Shown piece by piece: positions 2,270-26,819 of a stretch of 32,976 nt of DNA; the first letter of the stretch is position 1, and each line of letters starts with the position of its first letter. Under the pieces are notes generated by a model, which did no database searches, had not been told where the DNA came from, and saw only the letters and a program-made list of their open reading frames with translations. Source of the DNA: a virus; the IMG/VR virus record IMGVR_UViG_3300032298_000394, positions 1 to 32,976 of that record. The stretch is one strand, 5' to 3'. The translations under genes were made by a program, and so were the position numbers.

Positions 2270-3106
2270 ATGGACGACTATACAATTCCTATTACAAAAC
2301 CAGCTAGTCAATTTGCTGGAAATAGTTCTCAACAAAAACAAGAAACAACTTATCCATCTGAAATAGTTGATTTGCCAAGTCAGGGACATTTTTATCCTTC
2401 TTCTAGTCCATTGAGCAATGGTACTATTAACTTAAAAATAATGACTGCAAAAGAAGAAGATATTCTTACCAATCAAAATTATATCAAAAAAGGTATTGTG
2501 TTGGATAAGTTGATTGAATCACTTATAGTGGATAAAGATGTAAAACTAGACGATTTGTTGTTGGGTGATAAAAATGCAGTATTTGTTGCAATCCGAAGAT
2601 TTGCTTATGGTGATAGTTATGGTCCGCTTCAAATTAAATGTCCGGCATGTAGAGAAAATAATGAATGTACATTCAATTTAAGCGATTTGAAATATAAAGA
2701 TGTGGATGTATCAAAGTATCCACAAGGATCAAATCAATTTGATGTTGAACTGCCATATTGTAAAAAGACCGTAACTTGTAAATTATTAACTTCAGGAGAT
2801 GAAAAACAGATTGACAATGAAACCAAGATGTTGCAAAAGATTAAAACTGGTAGTACTTCAGATGTAACTACTAGATTAAGATACACAATTGTAGCTGTAA
2901 ATGGAAATTCTGATAAAACAGAAGTCAAAAAATTTGTTGAAAATGAACTTACTTCAAAAGACAGTTTTGAATTAAGAAAGTTGATTAAAGAAAGAACTCC
3001 TGATATTGATTTAAATTTTGATTTCAAATGTGAACAATGTAATCACGACGAAAGGATAGGTGTACCGCTAACGGTACAGTTTTTTTGGCCTGACTCCGGA
3101 AGATAA
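2270..3106 (+). CDS. T4 gp26-like baseplate/tail assembly protein with split zinc ribbon
   Basis: A 278-residue protein resembling the T4 baseplate-assembly family that includes gp26. After a disordered Ser/Gln-rich N-terminus it has V-D-L-P-S-Q-G-H-F-Y-P (residues 33-42), a typical opening of this family, then a helical region with D-D-L-L-L-G-D (94-100). C124-P-A-C127 and C254-E-Q-C257 can form a split zinc ribbon. It ends V-Q-F-F-W-P-D-S-G-R. The gene lies just before the tape measure gene, where other tailed phages carry the tail assembly chaperone pair (gpG/gpGT, P2 E/E'). A run of seven T (3080-3086) ten codons before the stop could let ribosomes enter the frame of the small downstream ORF, giving a protein of about 348 residues. 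Chaperone function is inferred from position. Confidence 0.7.
   Translation: MDDYTIPITKPASQFAGNSSQQKQETTYPSEIVDLPSQGHFYPSSSPLSNGTINLKIMTAKEEDILTNQNYIKKGIVLDKLIESLIVDKDVKLDDLLLGDKNAVFVAIRRFAYGDSYGPLQIKCPACRENNECTFNLSDLKYKDVDVSKYPQGSNQFDVELPYCKKTVTCKLLTSGDEKQIDNETKMLQKIKTGSTSDVTTRLRYTIVAVNGNSDKTEVKKFVENELTSKDSFELRKLIKERTPDIDLNFDFKCEQCNHDERIGVPLTVQFFWPDSGR
3080..3088 (+). promoter_or_regulatory. Candidate programmed frameshift site (T7-GG)
   Basis: Seven consecutive T followed by GG, read as CAG TTT TTT TGG in the gp26-like frame. A +1 slip of the peptidyl-tRNA from TTT to the overlapping TTT, or a -2 slip, enters the frame that continues G-L-T-P-E-D-K-L-L-I-H-E-Q-I-F to 3317. A homopolymer sequencing error is the main alternative. 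Confidence 0.5.
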
Positions 3107-13511: not shown

Positions 13512-13523
13512 AAACTTTGATTT

Positions 13524-13553
13524 TCGTGTATATAGTAATATTTATATATACGA
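13524..13553 (+). promoter_or_regulatory. TATTTATA box inside an 11-bp hairpin ending at the start codon
   Basis: TCGTGTATATA (13524-13534) pairs with TATATATACGA (13543-13553) through 11 pairs including one G-U, with an 8-base loop; a further T13523-A13554 pair reaches into the ATG. TATTTATA at 13539-13546 spans loop and 3' arm. A late transcript starting at the box would lack the 5' arm. Confidence 0.55.
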
Positions 13554-15395
13554 ATGAATACAGATGCAGAAATAAAATTAAAAGACTTACAAAGTAAGTT
13601 AGAACAAGTTGAAACTGTTATGCCATTGCCATTCAGTCAACAGATGAGAGAAAGTTTTCCGTTATATAAGATATTTGGTGAACAAGGAGATTATCATCCA
13701 AAAGAAAAAAGTTTACTAATAAAATGGTTAAAATTATCCGCTGACATTGAAACGCTTTTAAAAAGCATACAACAACTAAATGATGATTCTGTAATTAACG
13801 CAGTAGATAAAAATAAATTATATCAAAATTATGCTGATATTAAGTCTAGAATTGAATTGGCATCTGGTACATCTGTAACATTGGCAAATATTACTTCTGC
13901 AAAACCAACTGGTTTTATTCATCAAGACATCAAGAAGTTCTACAATATTTTTAATAACAGTGGTTATGCTAGCAAAGATAAGAAAAAAGAAAATACTGCG
14001 GATGTAGTATTATTATATAATTGTAGTATTGCTGAAGTACAAACTGCTTTAAAAGATAGAAAAGTATCTGGTTTAGAAGATAGTTTGTGTGAAATTACTG
14101 GTACAGGAAAGAAATTTGCAATGGTTTCTTTAAAAGCTGGTGGTGACAGTTATCGTACCGGAAGAGCGAAAGGTGTTTTTGATACACTCGGAAACAAATT
14201 AAGTTTTTCAGGTACACCTGCTGAAAAAGAAAAATACTATCAATGGTTACAGACACAACAACCCGATGGAAAACCAATTGAAAAAGATCCACGCAGTGTA
14301 TTTCCTGGTGGTGCATCTGTTTTTCAACAAAATGAAAGTATAAATCCAATATTTGAAGAAATTTATATTGGTAAAACACTACTAACTGAAATTGAATTTA
14401 TATCGTCTTTAAAGTCTTCACTCAATAGAATATCATCAAAAATAGGAGATTTATCTACCGAATTGATAAAAGGATGGAGTGATTTTACACAAAAAATTAA
14501 AAACACAATTGTAAAGATTTTTGGTAATATTGAACAAAAATGTCAAGAAGACATGAATTATGCTAGAAATCAATATTCCACCATGTTTAATAGCTGGGAT
14601 GTTATTGAAAAAGAAATTGGTGTTTTATCCGAAGCAAGGGAAGCGGACGAATTATTGGTAAAGATGACTGATTCATTAAAGAAGAATGTTGCTATATTTA
14701 TTCAACAAATCAATAGAATTCAACCAGATTCATTATTTAGTGCCATAAATGAAAAGGTAAGATTGATTGATAATAAGAATTTGTTTATGGTACAATTTAC
14801 TGGTACTACACCTGAAGATGTAAAACAAGTTAAGAATGCTTCTATAAAAGTCTATAACGATTATTTTAACGAATCTACTAAAGGTAATGTTCCGTTGAAT
14901 AAAGGTGCTTTTAGACCGATGAACATCTTTAATTCTAACGTATCGGCTATTGCATTTTATGAAAGATTCATTGAACGATTTATGAATGTTGGCAATGAAG
15001 CTCAAATTAAGAAAGATTTTATTCAATTTGCAAGTCAAATATCAGCAGAAGCAATTTTCGGAAACAATGACAGTCTTCCACTTGTAATATTTAATGGTAA
15101 GACAATTAACAGAATGGGAACAAAATCTGAATTTTCTAGTGGTAAAAAGTTAATTGATGCAAATGAAAATAAGAATTTTAGATTAAGTAAGTTTGAAGTT
15201 AGTAAAAATAAGGCCGGAACATATTTCGTTGTATATTTATATATTATCTTTGATATACGAGAAGAAGAAGAAAATGGAAAAGTAGAAGTAAAACCATTTT
15301 ATTCGGCAATTGAATTAAGAAATGAAAGAGGAAGTAAGTTTTCTTTCAAGACGGAAATTCACCGTTCCAATTTAAGTGAAGAAGATGTATTTTAA
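13554..15395 (+). CDS. Large late-class protein of unknown function
   Basis: A 613-residue protein I do not recognise. The N-terminal 120 residues are helical. At about 143-200 there is A-D-V-V-L-L-Y, then K-K-F-A-M-V-S-L-K-A-G-G, spaced somewhat like a PD-(D/E)xK nuclease core, but the acidic residue before the Lys is Ser, so I do not call a nuclease. Residues 290-420 are amphipathic helices, probably coiled coil, and 480-600 are mixed alpha/beta. No transmembrane segment or signal peptide. It carries a TATTTATA box, ends 2 bases before the next gene and uses the AGA-rich codons of structural genes. Together these suggest a late, possibly virion or packaging protein. The downstream gene appears to be its partner. 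Confidence 0.6.
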   Translation: MNTDAEIKLKDLQSKLEQVETVMPLPFSQQMRESFPLYKIFGEQGDYHPKEKSLLIKWLKLSADIETLLKSIQQLNDDSVINAVDKNKLYQNYADIKSRIELASGTSVTLANITSAKPTGFIHQDIKKFYNIFNNSGYASKDKKKENTADVVLLYNCSIAEVQTALKDRKVSGLEDSLCEITGTGKKFAMVSLKAGGDSYRTGRAKGVFDTLGNKLSFSGTPAEKEKYYQWLQTQQPDGKPIEKDPRSVFPGGASVFQQNESINPIFEEIYIGKTLLTEIEFISSLKSSLNRISSKIGDLSTELIKGWSDFTQKIKNTIVKIFGNIEQKCQEDMNYARNQYSTMFNSWDVIEKEIGVLSEAREADELLVKMTDSLKKNVAIFIQQINRIQPDSLFSAINEKVRLIDNKNLFMVQFTGTTPEDVKQVKNASIKVYNDYFNESTKGNVPLNKGAFRPMNIFNSNVSAIAFYERFIERFMNVGNEAQIKKDFIQFASQISAEAIFGNNDSLPLVIFNGKTINRMGTKSEFSSGKKLIDANENKNFRLSKFEVSKNKAGTYFVVYLYIIFDIREEEENGKVEVKPFYSAIELRNERGSKFSFKTEIHRSNLSEEDVF

Positions 15396-19678: not shown

Positions 19679-21058
19679 ATGTCAGAAAAAATTGTAGATA
19701 ACCTAAAAAAATTCGGATCTGAATTCCAAATCAAATGTATTAGTGGTTTGGTGTCGGATAAAACATTTATTGAAAGAATCAGTGATATCTTGGAACCAGA
19801 TAGTTTTGAGACTGATGCACATAAATTTATCGTTAAAGAAACGATTAGTTATTTTCTTCAATATAAAGATTTGCCAACCTTGGCAGTTTTTAAGGTTAAA
19901 GTAGATAGTATTGAAAATGATTTACTAAAACAGTCAGTTGTAGAACAACTTCGTTTAGTTTATCAAAAGATCAGTGATACTGATTTGAAATACATCAAAG
20001 AACAGTTTCTTGAATTCTGTAAAAATCAGAAAATCAAGAATGCTATTATGGAAAGCGTTGATCATTTAAAGAGTGGTCAATATGATAAAATCAAACATGT
20101 AGTTGATATTGCGATGAAAGCAGGTATGGAACGTAATATTGGACATGAATACATGGTTGATATTGAACAACGTATGAGTCAAATGGCTCGTAAGACAGTT
20201 AAAACAAACTGGACAGAAATTGATACTCTTATGGATGGTGGTCTTGCTGGAGGTGAACTTGGAATTATTACTGCTTGTGCAGGTAGTGGTAAGAGTTGGG
20301 TTCTTGCTAAGATGGGTGCAGAAGCAATGAAACAAGGCAAGAACGTATTGCATTATACTTTGGAATTGAATGAAAACTATGTTGGTCTACGTTATGATGC
20401 TTGTTTTACTGGAATTGATTTCCAAAACATTCGTAACAACATTGATATTGTTAAGAAGAAGATTGCAGAAGTGCCTGGTAAATTGATTATTAAGTACTTT
20501 CCAATCAAGACAGTATCTGCGCATAGTTTGAAGTTACATGCTGAACGTATTCAAACTCTTGGAACTAAGATAGATCTTATTATTGTTGATTATGCTGATA
20601 TTCTTCGTCCATCACAAAGTGATCGTAATAGTAACAGTTATAGTGAAGCTGGTGGTATTTATGAAGAACTACGTGGTGTAGCAGGTGAGTTACAAGTTCC
20701 AATTTGGAGTGCTTCACAGAGTAATCGTGCTGCTATGGATGAAGATATTATTCAAGCAAATAATATTTCTGACAGTTATCGTAAGATTATGACCGCTGAC
20801 TTTGTTATTTCACTAAGTCGTAAGATGTCAGACAAACAAGCTAATACTGCACGGTTCCATGTAATCAAGAACCGATTTGGTCCAGATGGTGTAACATTCC
20901 CGGCTAGAATGAATGCAGGATGTGGAGATATCAGAATCTTCGCAGAAAATAGCCGTGAAGGTATGGGTATCTTGAATGAAATGAGTCAAGAAGAAAATGT
21001 GGTTAAGAAAATGATAAGCAACAAGTGGAATGCTCATAGTACAGAGGATAGTGAATAA
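19679..21058 (+). CDS. 41: Replicative DNA helicase, DnaB/gp41 family
   Basis: A 459-residue RecA-type hexameric helicase. The N-terminal 150 residues are helical (DnaB N-domain-like). The motor has Walker A A-C-A-G-S-G-K-S (199-206), L-H-Y-T-L-E-L with its catalytic Glu (motif 1a), Walker B I-I-V-D-Y-A-D (301-307), a W-S-A-S-Q-S-N-R motif 3 (sensor Gln) and V-I-K-N-R-F-G-P-D-G in motif 4. Length is close to E. coli DnaB (471) and T4 gp41 (475). It unwinds DNA ahead of the fork and recruits primase, which is not in the window. It follows the SSB, recombinase and nuclease genes and ends before a strong terminator, so it closes the replication block. Confidence 0.93.
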   Translation: MSEKIVDNLKKFGSEFQIKCISGLVSDKTFIERISDILEPDSFETDAHKFIVKETISYFLQYKDLPTLAVFKVKVDSIENDLLKQSVVEQLRLVYQKISDTDLKYIKEQFLEFCKNQKIKNAIMESVDHLKSGQYDKIKHVVDIAMKAGMERNIGHEYMVDIEQRMSQMARKTVKTNWTEIDTLMDGGLAGGELGIITACAGSGKSWVLAKMGAEAMKQGKNVLHYTLELNENYVGLRYDACFTGIDFQNIRNNIDIVKKKIAEVPGKLIIKYFPIKTVSAHSLKLHAERIQTLGTKIDLIIVDYADILRPSQSDRNSNSYSEAGGIYEELRGVAGELQVPIWSASQSNRAAMDEDIIQANNISDSYRKIMTADFVISLSRKMSDKQANTARFHVIKNRFGPDGVTFPARMNAGCGDIRIFAENSREGMGILNEMSQEENVVKKMISNKWNAHSTEDSE

Positions 21059-21072
21059 CCTATATATCAATT

Positions 21073-21140
21073 AAAGGAGAAAAAGTTTCTATAAAATAAG
21101 ATTTTTATAAAGTTTTATTTTGGTCTTTTTCTCCTTTTTT
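21073..21140 (+). terminator. Long-loop terminator between helicase and nrdA
   Basis: AAAGGAGAAAAAG (21073-21085) pairs perfectly with CTTTTTCTCCTTT (21125-21137), 13 bp, with six T at 21135-21140. The 39-base loop can itself form AAAATAA/TTATTTT. The large loop is unusual for a terminator; AAAGGAG within it is not placed to serve any start codon. Confidence 0.7.
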
Positions 21141-21161
21141 GAATAATTATTTTTTACCCAT

Positions 21162-23444
21162 ATGAATAAAGAAATTTTTATAAAGAAGCGTAACGGAAAT
21201 TTGGAAAAATTTAGTGCAGATAAAATCAATAAGGTTTTACAATGGTCAACTGAAGATATCAAAAATGTTAGTTTTGAAGAAGTCGCAATGAATGCACATT
21301 TATCATTTTTTGATAAAATGTCTTCTGGTGATATTCATACAATGTTAATTGAAGCAGCATCAAACTTGATTAGTGAACAAAAACCTAATTATCAATATGT
21401 TGCATCAAGATTGTTAAACTATAGATTAAGAAAGAATGTATGGGGTGGTAAAAATCCTCCTAAACTACATGATTTAGTTCAATCTAATATTGAATCATTG
21501 GTCTATGATGGTGAAATTCTTAATTGGTATAGTAAACAAGAATTTGATAAATTGGATGAATATCTAAAACATGATCGTGATCTTAATTTCACTTATGCTG
21601 GAATTAAACAATTGTGTGATAAATACTTGGTTCAAAATAGAGCAACTAAACAAATATATGAAACACCACAGTTTGCATATATGTTGATTGCAATGACTTT
21701 CTTTAAAGATTATAAAGAAAACCGTCTTGAATATGTAAAGAGAGCTTATAACTATTTTAGTAAGCATAAGATTAATCTACCAACACCAATTATGGCAGGT
21801 GTAAGAACTCCAATGAAGAGTTATGCTAGTTGTTCATTATTCACTGTAGATGATAATTTACGTAGTATTTTCAGTAATATCAGTGCAGTTGGGTTTGCTA
21901 CAGCTAGTCGTTATGGTATTGGATTGAATTTATCAAGACTACGTGCTACAAATGCTCCAATTCGTAATGGTGAAGTAATGCATACAGGCCCAATTCCATT
22001 TGCTAAAGCATTTGAAGCTACTGTAAAGAGTTGTCATCAAAATGGAATTAGGGGGGGTAGTGCCACCGTCAATTTTGCATGGTTTCATTATGACATTCTA
22101 GATATTCTTGTATTGAAGAACAATCAAGGAACTGATGATAATCGGGTTCGTAAGTTGGACTATTGTATTGGATTAGATAAACTAATCTTTGAACGTTTTT
22201 TGAAAAATCAAGACGTTACACTATTTAGTTATCACGAATGCCCTTCACTGTGGAATACATTTGGATTAGAAGGATTCAAAGAAAAATATGAAAAGGCTGA
22301 AGCTAATAAGAACATTAAGTTCAAGAAGAAAGTTCCTGCTCGTGAATTGATGGGACTACTTGCTAAAGAACGTCTTGAAACAGGTCGTATTTATACAATG
22401 TTTGTGGATCATGCAAATGAACATGGTAGTTGGTTGGATCAAGTAGATACTAGTAATCTATGTCTTGAAGTTAATCATCCATTGATTCCAATTAATGATG
22501 TTAATGATAAGGATGCTGAAATTGGCGTTTGTATCTTGGCTGCATTGAATTGGTTGGAAATCAAAGACGATGAAGAAATGGAAAGTGTTTGTGATATTAT
22601 TGTTAGAATGTTGGATGCTTTGATTGAACATCAAGATTATTTCGTACCAGCAGCAGAAAACTTTGCTAAGAAACGTCGTAGTCTTGGTGTAGGTGTTAGT
22701 AACTTGGCTGCTCTATTGGCTAAAGAAGGATTGAAGTATTGGGACAAGGATGCTCCTAACTTTGTTGCCAAGTGGATGGAAAAGACAAGTTATTATTTAA
22801 TCAAGGCTAGTGTTGAAATGGCAAAAGAAGTTGGTAAGTGTGAAAAGTTTGATCGTACTAAGTTTAGTCAAGGAGTATTGCCAATTGATACTTATAAACG
22901 AGATATTGATGAATTTGTTACTGAACCGTTACATATGGATTGGGAAGCACTTCGTGCAGAAATCAAGAAGTATGGTATGAGACATAGTACACTTACTGCT
23001 TGTATGCCGGTAGAATCTAGTTCAGTAATTCAAAGCAGTACCAATGGTATTGAACCACCCCGTAGTGCTATTAGTTTCAAGGGAAGCAAGAGCAATATTT
23101 TGCCAGTGGTAATTCCTAATATTGACAAGTACAAGGATAATTATACATTTGCTTTTGATATGCCAAGTAATGAAGGTTATTTGAAGGTTGCTGCTGCTAT
23201 TCAAAAATTTACAGATATGAGTATTAGTACAAATACTTATTATGTACCATCTCGTTATGAAAAGAATAAAGTTCCTGTTCAAGAAGTGATTAAGGATATG
23301 TTATTGGCTTACAAGTATGGGCTTAAGAATTTGTATTATGCTAATACTGATGATGGTGATAAACAAACTGTTATGAATGAAACTGAAATAAAACAACCAA
23401 TAGTACAAGAATCCGGTTGTGAAAGCGGTGCTTGTGCTTTATAA
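21162..23444 (+). CDS. nrdA: Ribonucleotide reductase class Ia, alpha subunit
   Basis: A complete 760-residue NrdA. The N-terminal 90 residues form an ATP-cone (K-K-R-N-G-N-L-E-K-F) for allosteric control. Active-site residues are C224 (Y-A-S-C-S-L), N432, C434 and E436 (N-L-C-L-E-V), and the C-terminal redox pair C753/C758 (C-E-S-G-A-C-A-L). S-S-V-I-Q-S-S-T-N-G-I-E-P-P is the conserved loop near the active site. The enzyme reduces NDPs to dNDPs and needs the NrdB radical and a thioredoxin/glutaredoxin; no such redoxin is encoded here. Length matches E. coli NrdA (761). nrdB follows 12 bases later in one operon. It lies after a terminator, and no convincing promoter or Shine-Dalgarno was found before its ATG. 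Confidence 0.97.
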   Translation: MNKEIFIKKRNGNLEKFSADKINKVLQWSTEDIKNVSFEEVAMNAHLSFFDKMSSGDIHTMLIEAASNLISEQKPNYQYVASRLLNYRLRKNVWGGKNPPKLHDLVQSNIESLVYDGEILNWYSKQEFDKLDEYLKHDRDLNFTYAGIKQLCDKYLVQNRATKQIYETPQFAYMLIAMTFFKDYKENRLEYVKRAYNYFSKHKINLPTPIMAGVRTPMKSYASCSLFTVDDNLRSIFSNISAVGFATASRYGIGLNLSRLRATNAPIRNGEVMHTGPIPFAKAFEATVKSCHQNGIRGGSATVNFAWFHYDILDILVLKNNQGTDDNRVRKLDYCIGLDKLIFERFLKNQDVTLFSYHECPSLWNTFGLEGFKEKYEKAEANKNIKFKKKVPARELMGLLAKERLETGRIYTMFVDHANEHGSWLDQVDTSNLCLEVNHPLIPINDVNDKDAEIGVCILAALNWLEIKDDEEMESVCDIIVRMLDALIEHQDYFVPAAENFAKKRRSLGVGVSNLAALLAKEGLKYWDKDAPNFVAKWMEKTSYYLIKASVEMAKEVGKCEKFDRTKFSQGVLPIDTYKRDIDEFVTEPLHMDWEALRAEIKKYGMRHSTLTACMPVESSSVIQSSTNGIEPPRSAISFKGSKSNILPVVIPNIDKYKDNYTFAFDMPSNEGYLKVAAAIQKFTDMSISTNTYYVPSRYEKNKVPVQEVIKDMLLAYKYGLKNLYYANTDDGDKQTVMNETEIKQPIVQESGCESGACAL

Positions 23445-23456
23445 TAGGATAACAAA

Positions 23457-24515
23457 ATGAAAACAGTATTAAATAAGAAAAATATAGATCAGTTGAGAAA
23501 TCCAATGTTTTTGGGGGAAGATTTATCATTACAACGATATGATTTAATCAAGTATCCTAAATTCTATGATTTGTACGATCAACAATTGAATTTCTTTTGG
23601 CGACCACAAGAAGTTTCTCTTGTTAAAGATATTAGTGATTATAAGAATCTTTCACCAGAAGAACGATTTGTTTTTGATAGTAATCTTAAGTTTCAAACTA
23701 TGACTGATAGTATGTTGAGTCGTAGTATTCATGAATTAACAAAACGTTGTACAAATAGTGAGTTGGAAATTTGTATGAATGCGTGGAGTTTCTTTGAAAC
23801 CATTCATAGTAATAGTTATACATACATTTTAAATAATGTTTATCCAGATGCAACCAAGTTTTTTGATAGTATTTTGGATGATGAAGAAATTGTTAAAAGA
23901 GCTACTGCAATCAGTAAGAAGTATGATGAACTATTAACGCCGTCAGATGATGTTAAACAACAATTGTTTGATGCTGTATTGGCTACTCAGATTACAGAAG
24001 GATTGATATTTTATGTATCATTTGCTTGTAGTTTTTACTTTGGATATCGTGGAAAGATGGAGGGTAATAGTAAGATTATTAAGTTTATTAGCCGTGATGA
24101 AAATTTACATGTGGCTATTACACAGAATATTATGAAGAACTGGATTAATAACCCAGATGAAGGATTCCAAGATATCGTTAAAAAGAATGAAGATAAGGTA
24201 TATGCGGCTTATGAAATGGCAGTTAATGCTGAAAAAGAGTGGGCAGATTATCTATTCAGCAAGGGTAGTTTGATTGGATTAACTGCTGAAAGTCTAAAAA
24301 ATTATGTTGAATGGTTGGCTAACAATAGATTAACAAGCATTGGATATAAGAAACTGTATCCGCATGTAAAATCAAATTCTTTATCTGGATGGTTGGACAG
24401 TTACTATGACAGTAAAAAACTACAAGTTGCTCCTCAAGAAACTGAATTGAGTAGTTATGTAAAGGGTATAGATAATACCATCAGTGAAAACGCTTTTGAC
24501 GATTTTAAATTATAA
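23457..24515 (+). CDS. nrdB: Ribonucleotide reductase class Ia, beta subunit
   Basis: A complete 352-residue NrdB. The diiron ligands and radical tyrosine are all present: D84 (M-T-D-S), E114 and H117 (E-T-I-H), Y121 (S-N-S-Y), a helix Glu in Q-I-T-E-G-L-I-F-Y, and E-x-x-H in R-D-E-N-L-H. V-A-P-Q-E-T-E-L-S-S-Y near the C-terminus matches E. coli V-A-P-Q-E-V-E-V-S-S-Y with the radical-transfer Tyr356. It is therefore an active class Ia protein using a Tyr radical, not a Phe- or Val-substituted variant. The C-terminus F-D-D-F-K-L is the peptide that docks on NrdA. It is co-transcribed with nrdA. Its ATG follows TAGGATAACAAA, at best a weak Shine-Dalgarno. Confidence 0.97.
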   Translation: MKTVLNKKNIDQLRNPMFLGEDLSLQRYDLIKYPKFYDLYDQQLNFFWRPQEVSLVKDISDYKNLSPEERFVFDSNLKFQTMTDSMLSRSIHELTKRCTNSELEICMNAWSFFETIHSNSYTYILNNVYPDATKFFDSILDDEEIVKRATAISKKYDELLTPSDDVKQQLFDAVLATQITEGLIFYVSFACSFYFGYRGKMEGNSKIIKFISRDENLHVAITQNIMKNWINNPDEGFQDIVKKNEDKVYAAYEMAVNAEKEWADYLFSKGSLIGLTAESLKNYVEWLANNRLTSIGYKKLYPHVKSNSLSGWLDSYYDSKKLQVAPQETELSSYVKGIDNTISENAFDDFKL

Positions 24516-24535
24516 TAAATTATTTTGAATAATGT

Positions 24536-24570
24536 CCATAAGTTATATATTTATTCTATATAATTTATGG
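24536..24570 (+). promoter_or_regulatory. TATTTATT box within a 14-bp hairpin that contains the start codon
   Basis: CCATAAGTTATATA (24536-24549) pairs along its whole length (one G-U) with TATATAATTTATGG (24557-24570), which includes the ATG at 24567-24569. The loop is 7 bases, and TATTTATT occupies 24548-24555. In read-through RNA the start codon would be buried; RNA begun from the box would lack the 5' arm. Confidence 0.6.
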
Positions 24571-24941
24571 ACCAAAATATTGTATTATCTTTAATTGGAA
24601 TTGTACCTGCTGTAATCGCATCAATCGTAACATATGGTATTTCCGCAAAGAAAACCAAAGTGGATGTGATTAAAATGATAAATGATTCCAGTGCTAAATT
24701 AAGAGTGGAAGTTAAGTTAGAATTGGAAGAATGTAGGAAAGATAGAGAAGCTATAAGAAGTGAATTGAGTATATATAAGAAAGAAAATGAGTCTATAAAG
24801 AAAGAATTGGAAGAACAGAAGAAAGAAAATTCACAATTAAAGAGTGATTTAAATGAATTTGAAATTAAGTTGGATGCTGCAAATGATTTAATTTCAAAGT
24901 TAGTTGACAGTAAAGTTTCAAAAAAGAAGTTGACAAAGTAA
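24567..24941 (+). CDS. Membrane-anchored coiled-coil protein
   Basis: A 124-residue protein. One hydrophobic segment near the N-terminus (about residues 4-25, L-S-L-I-G-I-V-P-A-V-I-A-S-I-V) is followed by a long charged helix to about residue 112, with heptad-like Leu/Ile spacing, and a Lys-rich end. An N-anchored coiled coil of this size resembles an inner-membrane spanin (Rz-type) in layout, but no outer-membrane spanin with a lipobox is embedded or adjacent. A membrane tether for phage factors is equally possible. It has the late-type box and the strongest start-codon hairpin of the window, consistent with tightly timed late expression. It lies 22 bases before the Mom-like gene. Confidence 0.65.
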   Translation: MDQNIVLSLIGIVPAVIASIVTYGISAKKTKVDVIKMINDSSAKLRVEVKLELEECRKDREAIRSELSIYKKENESIKKELEEQKKENSQLKSDLNEFEIKLDAANDLISKLVDSKVSKKKLTK

Positions 24942-24963
24942 GACAGTCTGGTAATCTTTATAG

Positions 24964-25746
24964 ATGGTAGAAGAAAAGTATTGTGATACATCTTTAATAT
25001 TCTTAAAGTCAATAAACAAGAATATTGCTAAGAATCTTATTATAAAGAACCATTATACGCATAAATGGACACTTTGTACTGTTGCGTATGGTGTTTACTA
25101 TAAAGAATATGTTGAGAGTACATTCTTTGGTGGATTCAACGCAAAATTAATTGGTGTATTAGTATATGGAAACAGTGTTGGTAGGAATGCTGGTAATAGT
25201 ATCACTCCACTACTTACTAATGATAATGTGTTAGAATTAACACGGTTGTGGATAGAAGACGGATATGGTAAGAATATTGAAAGTTATTGTATTGCGGATA
25301 GTTTCCGTCAAATAAACAAAGATTATCCTATAATCAAGTGTATTTTAAGTTATGCTGATAGTGAAGTAGGACATACAGGTAAGATTTATCAAGCTACTGG
25401 ATTTATATATCAAGGCGATAACTATATAGATGTCGCATTAATGCCGAATTACAGTGTAAGTCTTAGTGGACCACCTGATTATAAATGGATACATAGTAGA
25501 ACTGTATTTTCCAAATGGAAGACTCATAATGTAGATAAATTGAAACAACGTATTTGTAGGACATTTTGGCGTAAAAAGGAAAGTGGTAAACACAGATATA
25601 TTAAATTTATATCAAATAAGATAGAAAATAAGAAATTGGTAAAGCATCTCAAGCACCCCTCCCACCCCTACCCTATTGTTGGTGGATATAAAGAAGATAT
25701 AAAAGAAATAAAAGTTGAAAATACAGATGAACAATCTTTTTTTTAA
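24964..25746 (+). CDS. mom: Mom-like DNA modification protein (adenine carbamoylmethylation family)
   Basis: A 260-residue protein resembling phage Mu Mom, a GNAT-fold enzyme that modifies adenine and protects DNA from restriction. Diagnostic parts: I-I-K-N-H30-Y31-T-H-K-W in the first helix region, V-L-E-L-T-R94-L-W-I-E-D-G with N-I-E-S, and S-Y-A-D132-S-E-V-G-H136-T-G-K-I-Y142-Q-A-T-G-F-I-Y-Q-G. The R...D...(10)...Y spacing looks like the invariant core of the Mom family as I remember it; Mu residue numbers cannot be checked here. A basic extension of about 70 residues follows, perhaps for DNA binding. Mu controls mom very tightly because over-modification is harmful. Here the gene follows a late-class gene by 22 bases and has no promoter of its own that I could see. 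Confidence 0.72.
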   Translation: MVEEKYCDTSLIFLKSINKNIAKNLIIKNHYTHKWTLCTVAYGVYYKEYVESTFFGGFNAKLIGVLVYGNSVGRNAGNSITPLLTNDNVLELTRLWIEDGYGKNIESYCIADSFRQINKDYPIIKCILSYADSEVGHTGKIYQATGFIYQGDNYIDVALMPNYSVSLSGPPDYKWIHSRTVFSKWKTHNVDKLKQRICRTFWRKKESGKHRYIKFISNKIENKKLVKHLKHPSHPYPIVGGYKEDIKEIKVENTDEQSFF

Positions 25747-25748
25747 TG

Positions 25749-25766
25749 ATATTTATATACAAATAT
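25749..25766 (+). promoter_or_regulatory. TATTTATA box with a short start-overlapping hairpin
   Basis: TATTTATA at 25750-25757 ends 7 bases before the ATG at 25765. ATATTT (25749-25754) can pair with AAATAT (25761-25766), which includes the first two bases of the start codon; the loop is ATATAC. All pairs are A-T, so stability is low. Confidence 0.45.
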
Positions 25767-26427
25767 GAATATTAGTGAATTTAAGAAATTGATCAAGGAA
25801 TGTATTCTTGAAGTTAAAGTGAAACGATCTGTAAAGAATCTAATTAAAGAATCATTGAAAGATGTAAAAGTTGAAAAAGGTGAATCTCTCCATTATAAGA
25901 TGGAAGAATTATCTAATGATGTTAAAAAGCTATATAAAGATGCGGAAGTGGTATTAGATGACGCTGGTTATTACAATGTATGTTCTTGCAATCCACATCA
26001 TTTTAAAATTTATCCAATGACAGATGACAATTTTACCGTAACATATATGAAAGATAATACTGATAGAATCAAAAAATTTAATTTAACTTTTTCTGCATTA
26101 AAAGAATTTATTACAGAAACACTCAAAACAACAGTTGGTAACTATGTTCAAAAAGCATTCTATAAGAATGTTGAAAATAATAAGGACAAAGAATCTAAAA
26201 AAGAAGAAGGTCCAGCACATACAACCAAAAAGATTGAAGTTAAAGATCAAGTTGAAAAGAAAGAAGATCAACCAGATCAACCATTTAAACCAGTTGACAA
26301 AATCAAGAAACAAGTGGATCATAGTGTCAAGGGTGAAAAAGCTTCTTATAAGTATCCAAAACAAACTGATAAGAAATTGACTGTCAAACCAAAGACATTC
26401 AAGGGTAAATCAAACAAAAAGAAATAA
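25765..26427 (+). CDS. Lys-rich protein with repeated K-x-L-I-K-E motif
   Basis: A 220-residue protein, unrecognised. It begins with two similar amphipathic helices, K-K-L-I-K-E-C-I-L-E-V (about 7-17) and K-N-L-I-K-E-S-L-K-D-V (about 24-34); a related stretch (K-K-I-K-E-C-I) occurs inside the nucleotidylyltransferase gene at 1363. Residues 45-130 form a small alpha/beta domain with a C-S-C-N-P-H-H cluster near 73-79, possibly metal-binding. From about 135 on the chain is disordered and made of Lys, Glu, Asp, Gln and Pro, ending very basic (K-S-N-K-K-K). Nucleic-acid binding or a scaffold role is plausible. Late-type box in front; the next gene starts 1 base after its stop. Confidence 0.6.
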   Translation: MNISEFKKLIKECILEVKVKRSVKNLIKESLKDVKVEKGESLHYKMEELSNDVKKLYKDAEVVLDDAGYYNVCSCNPHHFKIYPMTDDNFTVTYMKDNTDRIKKFNLTFSALKEFITETLKTTVGNYVQKAFYKNVENNKDKESKKEEGPAHTTKKIEVKDQVEKKEDQPDQPFKPVDKIKKQVDHSVKGEKASYKYPKQTDKKLTVKPKTFKGKSNKKK

Positions 26428-26428
26428 T

Positions 26429-26755
26429 ATGAAAAACAATATCGCATTGGGTTTGGCTGCATTAGTAGCACTTACCAATGTAAAAGTAAATGCAGGTGAC
26501 AGAGAGTGGGCCACAGTTGGTAAAGTTCTTACTGGTGTTGCTGCTCTTCATGTAGTTGAAAGGATTATATGTCCTCCTCAACCACAAGTAGTATATGTAC
26601 ATCAACCAGTTGTAGTTCAATCTGCTCCTGTTGTACATTATGTTCCGGCTCCACAAGTTGTTTATGTACAATCTCCACAGGTTGTTTATTATCATCAACC
26701 TGCTCCAGTGGTAGTTGTTCACGGACACTATCACGGTCATTGGCACAGACGTTAA
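26429..26755 (+). CDS. Secreted Val/Pro/His-rich protein
   Basis: A 108-residue protein with a clear Sec signal peptide: K-N at the start, a hydrophobic core I-A-L-G-L-A-A-L-V-A-L, and a probable cleavage site after V-N-A (about residue 22). The mature part opens D-R-E-W-A-T-V-G-K-V-L-T-G-V, then turns into repeats of P-Q-V-V-Y-V/P-V-V-x-x-x (about 50-95) and ends in a His cluster (H-G-H-Y-H-G-H-W-H) that could bind metal. Such secreted repeat proteins are typical of bacterial envelopes and unusual beside phage replication genes, so host origin is possible. It is followed by a strong terminator. No function can be assigned. Confidence 0.65.
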   Translation: MKNNIALGLAALVALTNVKVNAGDREWATVGKVLTGVAALHVVERIICPPQPQVVYVHQPVVVQSAPVVHYVPAPQVVYVQSPQVVYYHQPAPVVVVHGHYHGHWHRR

Positions 26756-26782
26756 AATCAAAAAATCAAGTTTAAACGAGAG

Positions 26783-26819
26783 ACTGTTGGATCAAACCAA
26801 CAGTTTTTTTATTTTTTTT
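26783..26819 (+). terminator. Rho-independent terminator after secreted protein gene
   Basis: ACTGTTGG (26783-26790) pairs with CCAACAGT (26797-26804), loop ATCAAA, followed by T7 at 26804-26810 and a second T8 tract. It isolates the upstream genes from the MoxR/VWA operon, whose promoter begins 2 bases later. Confidence 0.88.

Follow-up and report, generated by a model that had tools for sequence, protein, structure and literature searches.

An open reading frame (ORF) of 124 aa that follows the ribonucleotide reductase genes of an uncultured phage raises the question of how a gene that may be reached by RNA from its upstream neighbours could be kept silent early in infection and opened late. 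The ORF lies on an AT-rich genome fragment (32% G+C) of a T4-like myovirus, with genes for tail, baseplate, replication and ribonucleotide reductase functions. The whole 33-kb stretch of DNA that was analysed (32,976 nucleotides) is called the window throughout. The best matches of its tail tube protein are to those of Microcystis phage Mel-JY01 (65%), Flavobacterium phage immuto (57%) and Rhodothermus phage RM378 (39%).

The locus and its genes

The genes and elements that bear on the start of the 124-aa ORF are as follows.

21162 to 23444, + strand: nrdA, ribonucleotide reductase large subunit, the upstream gene and source of the proposed read-through RNA
23457 to 24515, + strand: nrdB, small subunit, its stop codon 18 nt 5' of the hairpin
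24534 to 24572, + strand: 16-bp hairpin (5' arm 24534-24549, loop 24550-24556, 3' arm 24557-24572, one G-U)
24546 to 24555, + strand: promoter-like box TATATTTATT, with core TATTTATT at 24548-24555, reaching from the upper 5' arm across the loop
24558 to 24562, + strand: predicted late RNA start, from T4 late-promoter geometry and the modal 4-nt box-to-ATG spacing
24567 to 24941, + strand: 124-aa ORF, putatively controlled by the hairpin, encoding an N-terminal hydrophobic segment and a long coiled coil
24964 to 25746, + strand: Mom-family DNA modification gene (PF25680, E 4e-43; PHROG 1384), next after the 124-aa ORF
26778 to 26809, + strand: first strong intrinsic terminator downstream of nrdAB, from the terminator scan

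The 124-aa ORF follows nrdAB on the same strand without an intervening terminator, an arrangement shared with the T4 genes that are locked by a hairpin. The terminator scan gave no terminator-like site on the + strand from 19886 to 26778, and RNA from the nrd genes should therefore run into the ORF. By analogy with T4, nrdAB may be early or middle genes in this phage. Protein family searches gave no confident family match for the ORF product, which was absent from the annotated phages searched; orthologues are present at 14 loci. The gene downstream (24964-25746) is a clear Mom-family gene in a T4-like phage and is common among the relatives. In many of these (L276, L278, L281, L306, L308) a TTGACA...TATAAT-like promoter stands a few nt before the mom start, directly upstream of position 3001, and replaces the late box.

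A hairpin over the start codon

The preliminary description placed the ATG of the ORF within a stem of 14 pairs running from C24536-G24570 to A24549-T24557 with a single G-U. Exactly these pairs were found (-12.0 kcal/mol, z -5.1, 0 of 200 shuffles), and the stem proved to be two pairs longer (G24534-C24572 and T24535-A24571). The resulting 16-bp hairpin, with a 7-nt loop, has a predicted energy of -17.4 kcal/mol (z -6.9) and closes over the ATG and codon 2. The ATG (24567-24569) lies wholly within the 3' arm, and all three AUG bases are paired in the fold. The leader has no Shine-Dalgarno, in keeping with the earlier proposal that the start codon itself is what is hidden. A stable hairpin would in this way cover the initiation region of read-through RNA; in the T4 lock the Shine-Dalgarno and/or the AUG is sequestered in a helix (PMC3014915), and here it is the AUG.

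The hairpin is the sole inverted repeat of at least 14 bp (loop 3-12, at most 2 G-U) in the 33-kb window, and none appeared in 12 whole-window shuffles. When 28 starts of the window were folded alike, the hairpin start had the lowest z (-6.1), and its ATG was fully paired. The hairpin site is present in the window as a single copy.

A promoter-like box within the hairpin

A promoter-type box at 24548-24555, lying across the loop, had also been described. The sequence there is TATTTATT, a variant of the box TATATTTATA (sense orientation) of the phage family, which is an enriched, orientation-specific, promoter-like element. In four sequences (the window and its relatives G008, G003 and G023) the top 8-mers upstream of ORFs were ATATTTAT, seen 46 times against 1.35 expected, and TATTTATA, seen 37 times against 1.2. 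TATTTATA, with TATATTTAT, is more than an arbitrary AT string. In G003 the box was in sense orientation in 27/77 and reversed in 5/77. Within the window, nine of the 15 sense boxes are at most 30 nt from a gene start, a zone of 870 of the 32,976 positions. Window boxes stand before the genes for tail tube and tape measure and before genes of unknown function, and are absent before the genes for SSB, uvsX, exonuclease, helicase, nrdA and nrdB. In many of ~80 relatives the box precedes whichever gene comes after nrdB, even a different one; Mel-JY01 has few such boxes before genes. In the literature collection searched, no paper on TATTTATA or on leaderless late phage promoters was found.

The commonest box-to-ATG distance is 4 nt (window, G003, G008 and G023; L347-L360), and with an RNA start 5-6 nt after the box late RNAs would be leaderless or nearly so. 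At the 124-aa ORF the spacing is 11 nt, which provides space for the 3' arm.

Structure is also seen at other starts in the window. A 13-bp perfect inverted repeat (AAATTATAACTTT...AAAGTTATAATTT, 2222-2270, z -4.9) adjoins the ATG of the baseplate hub gene, where an intact box is absent. At 13522-13554 a box-bearing start has a 13-bp stem that ends at ATG 13554, and at 25750-25775 the box itself pairs with the start codon at 25765.

A candidate sigma factor

Standard PHROG models of gp55 gave no match in the relatives, the 190-kb Mel-JY01 record included. A weak match to sigma region 2 led to a conserved protein in several relatives, Mel-JY01 and immuto. This unannotated sigma-factor-like protein, a candidate late sigma factor, is encoded at the following positions.

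L337, 982 to 1986
L322, 5673 to 6431
L240, 8764 to 9534
L345, 1447 to 2169

The L102 homologue matches the gp55 PHROG (E 7.5e-4), and an alignment of the family with T4 gp55 (hhalign) is collinear but weak (E 0.003, probability 11). The AlphaFold model of the protein (pLDDT 66, moderate confidence) superposes on sigma region 2 of several sigma factors with an rmsd of ~3 over 93-99 residues and a Z of ~8.5, which chance alone can give with helical models; the model also matches viral late sigma factors, with weak E-values. It is likely that the phage group encodes a sigma factor, and the candidate may be the protein that reads the box.

Conservation in variants and orthologues

Three sequence variants of the hairpin were found, and all 16 pairs form in each. 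The 5' arm is invariant and the 3' arm changes at two paired positions (G-C/G-U and U-G/U-A), both changes preserving the RNA pair and breaking the DNA symmetry. The preliminary description had suggested comparing the arms for compensatory changes; pairing is kept in the three variants, but compensation at the window hairpin is one-sided only, and double changes occur only in a sister hairpin before a GIY-YIG endonuclease gene (see below). Columns 24530-24549 hold zero variable sites, against 1-8 in most of the adjacent 20-column blocks of nrdB and the ORF. Across the 1.2 kb around the hairpin, ~16% of sites differ between the window and the L008 variant; the corresponding L004-type comparison was left out, as an insertion between the ORF and mom disturbs it.

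The orthologue that is 56% identical (L027/L247/L248) has a different, weaker fold, which again pairs the AUG (z -2.6, shuffle p ~0.01). Orthologues that are ~45-52% identical (L249-L252) carry the box without the hairpin, so that the lock is not universal even for the 124-aa ORF. The structure at T4 gene e is also patchy, several T4 relatives having e without it (PMC3014915). An exact search of viral contigs for the 5' arm returned 35 stretches, with the whole hairpin only in the window clade. Use of a CCAT...box...ATGG pattern as a hairpin finder was rejected, as its matches outside that clade fold weakly. The idea that the hairpin tracks a mom gene directly downstream was dropped; in L050-type phages mom is one gene further on and there is no hairpin.

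Recurrence at other gene starts

In a scan of 521 distinct box sites of the phage family, eight were within stems scoring at least 30, compared with none in three rounds with shuffled flanks. All eight strong box hairpins precede ORFs, which belong to four gene families, that of the 124-aa ORF included. One of the others is a GIY-YIG endonuclease (PF01541, E 1e-8), with the box in a 19-bp stem; the ORF is flanked on one side by the N-terminal part of NrdA with the N-part of an intein, and on the other by an intein C-part followed by the C-terminal part of NrdA. Two pairs of this stem are changed on both sides between variants, a result that comprises three sequences and is not significant in a shuffle control (109/500). 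At a second break in nrdA, a 365-aa ORF has a 17-bp box stem that ends at the ATG; it has no Pfam nuclease match, and the label of endonuclease is therefore taken from its place. The remaining family, an endonuclease-like ORF (weak NUMOD3; REase_MTES_1575 at E 1.6e-7, which falls short of the Pfam cut-off), lies between uvsX and the gene for a 5'-3' exonuclease and has a 14-bp stem in which codons 3-9 pair with the region upstream of the box. The arm sequences of the four hairpins are unrelated, and only the box and the geometry are common to them.

This recurrence is the best evidence for the box plus hairpin as a functional unit. The lock is probably used several times in the phage group, mostly on homing endonuclease genes.

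In L050 (1-2988) and L035 (1-2989) split-intein halves interrupt nrdA at one or two places, and free-standing (endonuclease) ORFs lie between these halves, each with its own box-in-hairpin start. Rfam, applied to the window and three relatives, matched no family; with split-intein halves on both sides, the nrdA-nested endonucleases are therefore considered to lie outside any recognised intron.

Proposed mechanism and alternative explanations

The hairpin is probably a translational lock combined with a late promoter. The T4-type logic (e, soc and 49) that had been put forward for it is supported, and those parts that can be tested in the sequence are largely as predicted. RNA started upstream and passing through nrdA and nrdB into the 124-aa ORF would carry both arms, and the 16-bp stem would bury the AUG, for which the predicted probability of being unpaired in read-through RNA is ~0.001 or less. 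With the AUG buried and no Shine-Dalgarno to help the ribosome, the ORF should not be translated early. With the nrdB stop codon where it is, the hairpin would lie just past the terminating ribosome, and translation of nrdB should consequently leave it closed.

Later, a late sigma factor of the phage would redirect RNA polymerase to start 5-6 nt downstream of the TATATTTATT box, and thus inside the 3' arm. The box is so positioned that RNA begun there has no 5' arm; with that arm missing, the AUG would be free behind a leader of ~5-9 nt and the ORF could be translated. In RNA starting at 24558-24562 the predicted accessibility of the AUG is 0.48-0.83 per base at 37 C and 0.12-0.68 at 15 C, and in the L008 variant two bases of the AUG remain paired, with other sequence, in a predicted RNA with a 7-nt leader. 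The T4 geometry may not carry over exactly, since TATTTATA is the reverse complement of T4's TATAAATA.

The position of the hairpin, which starts 18 nt past the nrdB stop, would also fit a main role in ending or protecting the 3' end of the nrdAB message, as a terminator, stabiliser or processing site, with the start codon covered as a result of tight gene packing. Many relatives (e.g. L020, L028, L059) do have an intrinsic terminator at the same place, but these terminators are upstream of the box and do not enclose it, and box-enclosing hairpins recur at other gene starts. In addition, the stem is AU-rich with no U-run after it, and it is absent from the list of the terminator scan, for which reason its identity as an intrinsic terminator was rejected. 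This explanation is considered unlikely. Very little probability is given to the inverted repeat acting as DNA, as an operator for a dimeric repressor (perhaps an autorepressor) that shuts the late promoter. The dyad around the promoter is near-perfect, and I-TevI autorepresses at an operator overlapping its own late promoter (PMC2988022); however, the 3'-arm differences break DNA symmetry while keeping RNA pairing, the site has no second copy in the window, and the arms of the four hairpins are unrelated.

Least probable of all is that the box and hairpin coincide through AT-rich sequence and have been kept by recent common descent. The hairpin is known from three close variants only and is absent from more distant orthologues, which would be expected of such a coincidence, but comparable repeats were absent from the whole-window shuffles, the family scan gave eight against none in controls, and columns 24530-24549 are invariant amid variable neighbouring blocks.

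Significance

The T4 lock is known from work on phages of enteric and Aeromonas hosts, in which translation uses the Shine-Dalgarno. The same geometry, with unrelated arms, at four genes of a far-removed group, in leaders that have no Shine-Dalgarno, suggests a general answer to one problem, that of a late or mobile gene caught within an early operon. The arrangement described here allows tests of how an AUG can be concealed and released on its own, provides a promoter consensus for a phage group common in the environment, and points to a way in which endonuclease genes inside split-intein-broken genes could be kept silent during synthesis of the gene halves. A wider picture is a real, if still tentative, possibility: a large, almost uncultured T4-like group (relatives of the Flavobacterium and Rhodothermus phages) may have its own late promoter, TATATTTATA, set so near the start codons that late mRNAs are (nearly) leaderless, the RNA start alone deciding translatability, and box-in-hairpin locks may guard inserted genes, including homing endonucleases between split-intein halves of nrdA.

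Comparison with known systems

Published precedents for the hairpin lock are those of e, soc and 49 (PMC3014915) and of the intron endonucleases (PMC2988022). The lock of the T4 lysozyme gene e (McPheeters et al. 1986, as described in PMC3014915) resembles that proposed for the window in the hairpin of read-through RNA over the initiation region, in the late promoter in the 5' arm or loop, and in a late RNA without the 5' arm. Folded as a control, T4 e gave -14.9 with the box in the loop, similar to the window hairpin at -17.4; the T4 gene 49 leader gave -17.9 and I-TevII -26.4. T4 e has a Shine-Dalgarno in the structure, whereas the late leader in the window would be ~5-9 nt and free of one. 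The e box is TATAAATA, and both the gene product and the phage group are unrelated to those of the window. T4 soc and 49 are, like the window gene, non-lysis late genes downstream of early genes with the same lock, but they are Shine-Dalgarno-dependent and have the T4 box, neither of which is true of the window ORF. The T4 late consensus TATAAATA is not that of the phage family, the box of which is TATATTTATA in sense orientation.

Hairpin-locked homing endonucleases include I-TevI, I-TevII, I-TevIII, segB and Aeh1 mobE (PMC2988022). Their genes, like those of the phage family, are in early or middle operons (nrd included) with a late box in a hairpin. The locked gene of the window is not an endonuclease; in the phage family three of the four hairpins guard inserted ORFs, as in the I-Tev-type systems. 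In two cases here the host gene is an nrdA interrupted by split inteins, not by group I introns, and the ORF lies free between the halves. What is new in comparison with the T4 lock is the phage group, the box, the absent Shine-Dalgarno, the predicted near-leaderless late RNA and the ORFs nested in genes broken by split inteins.
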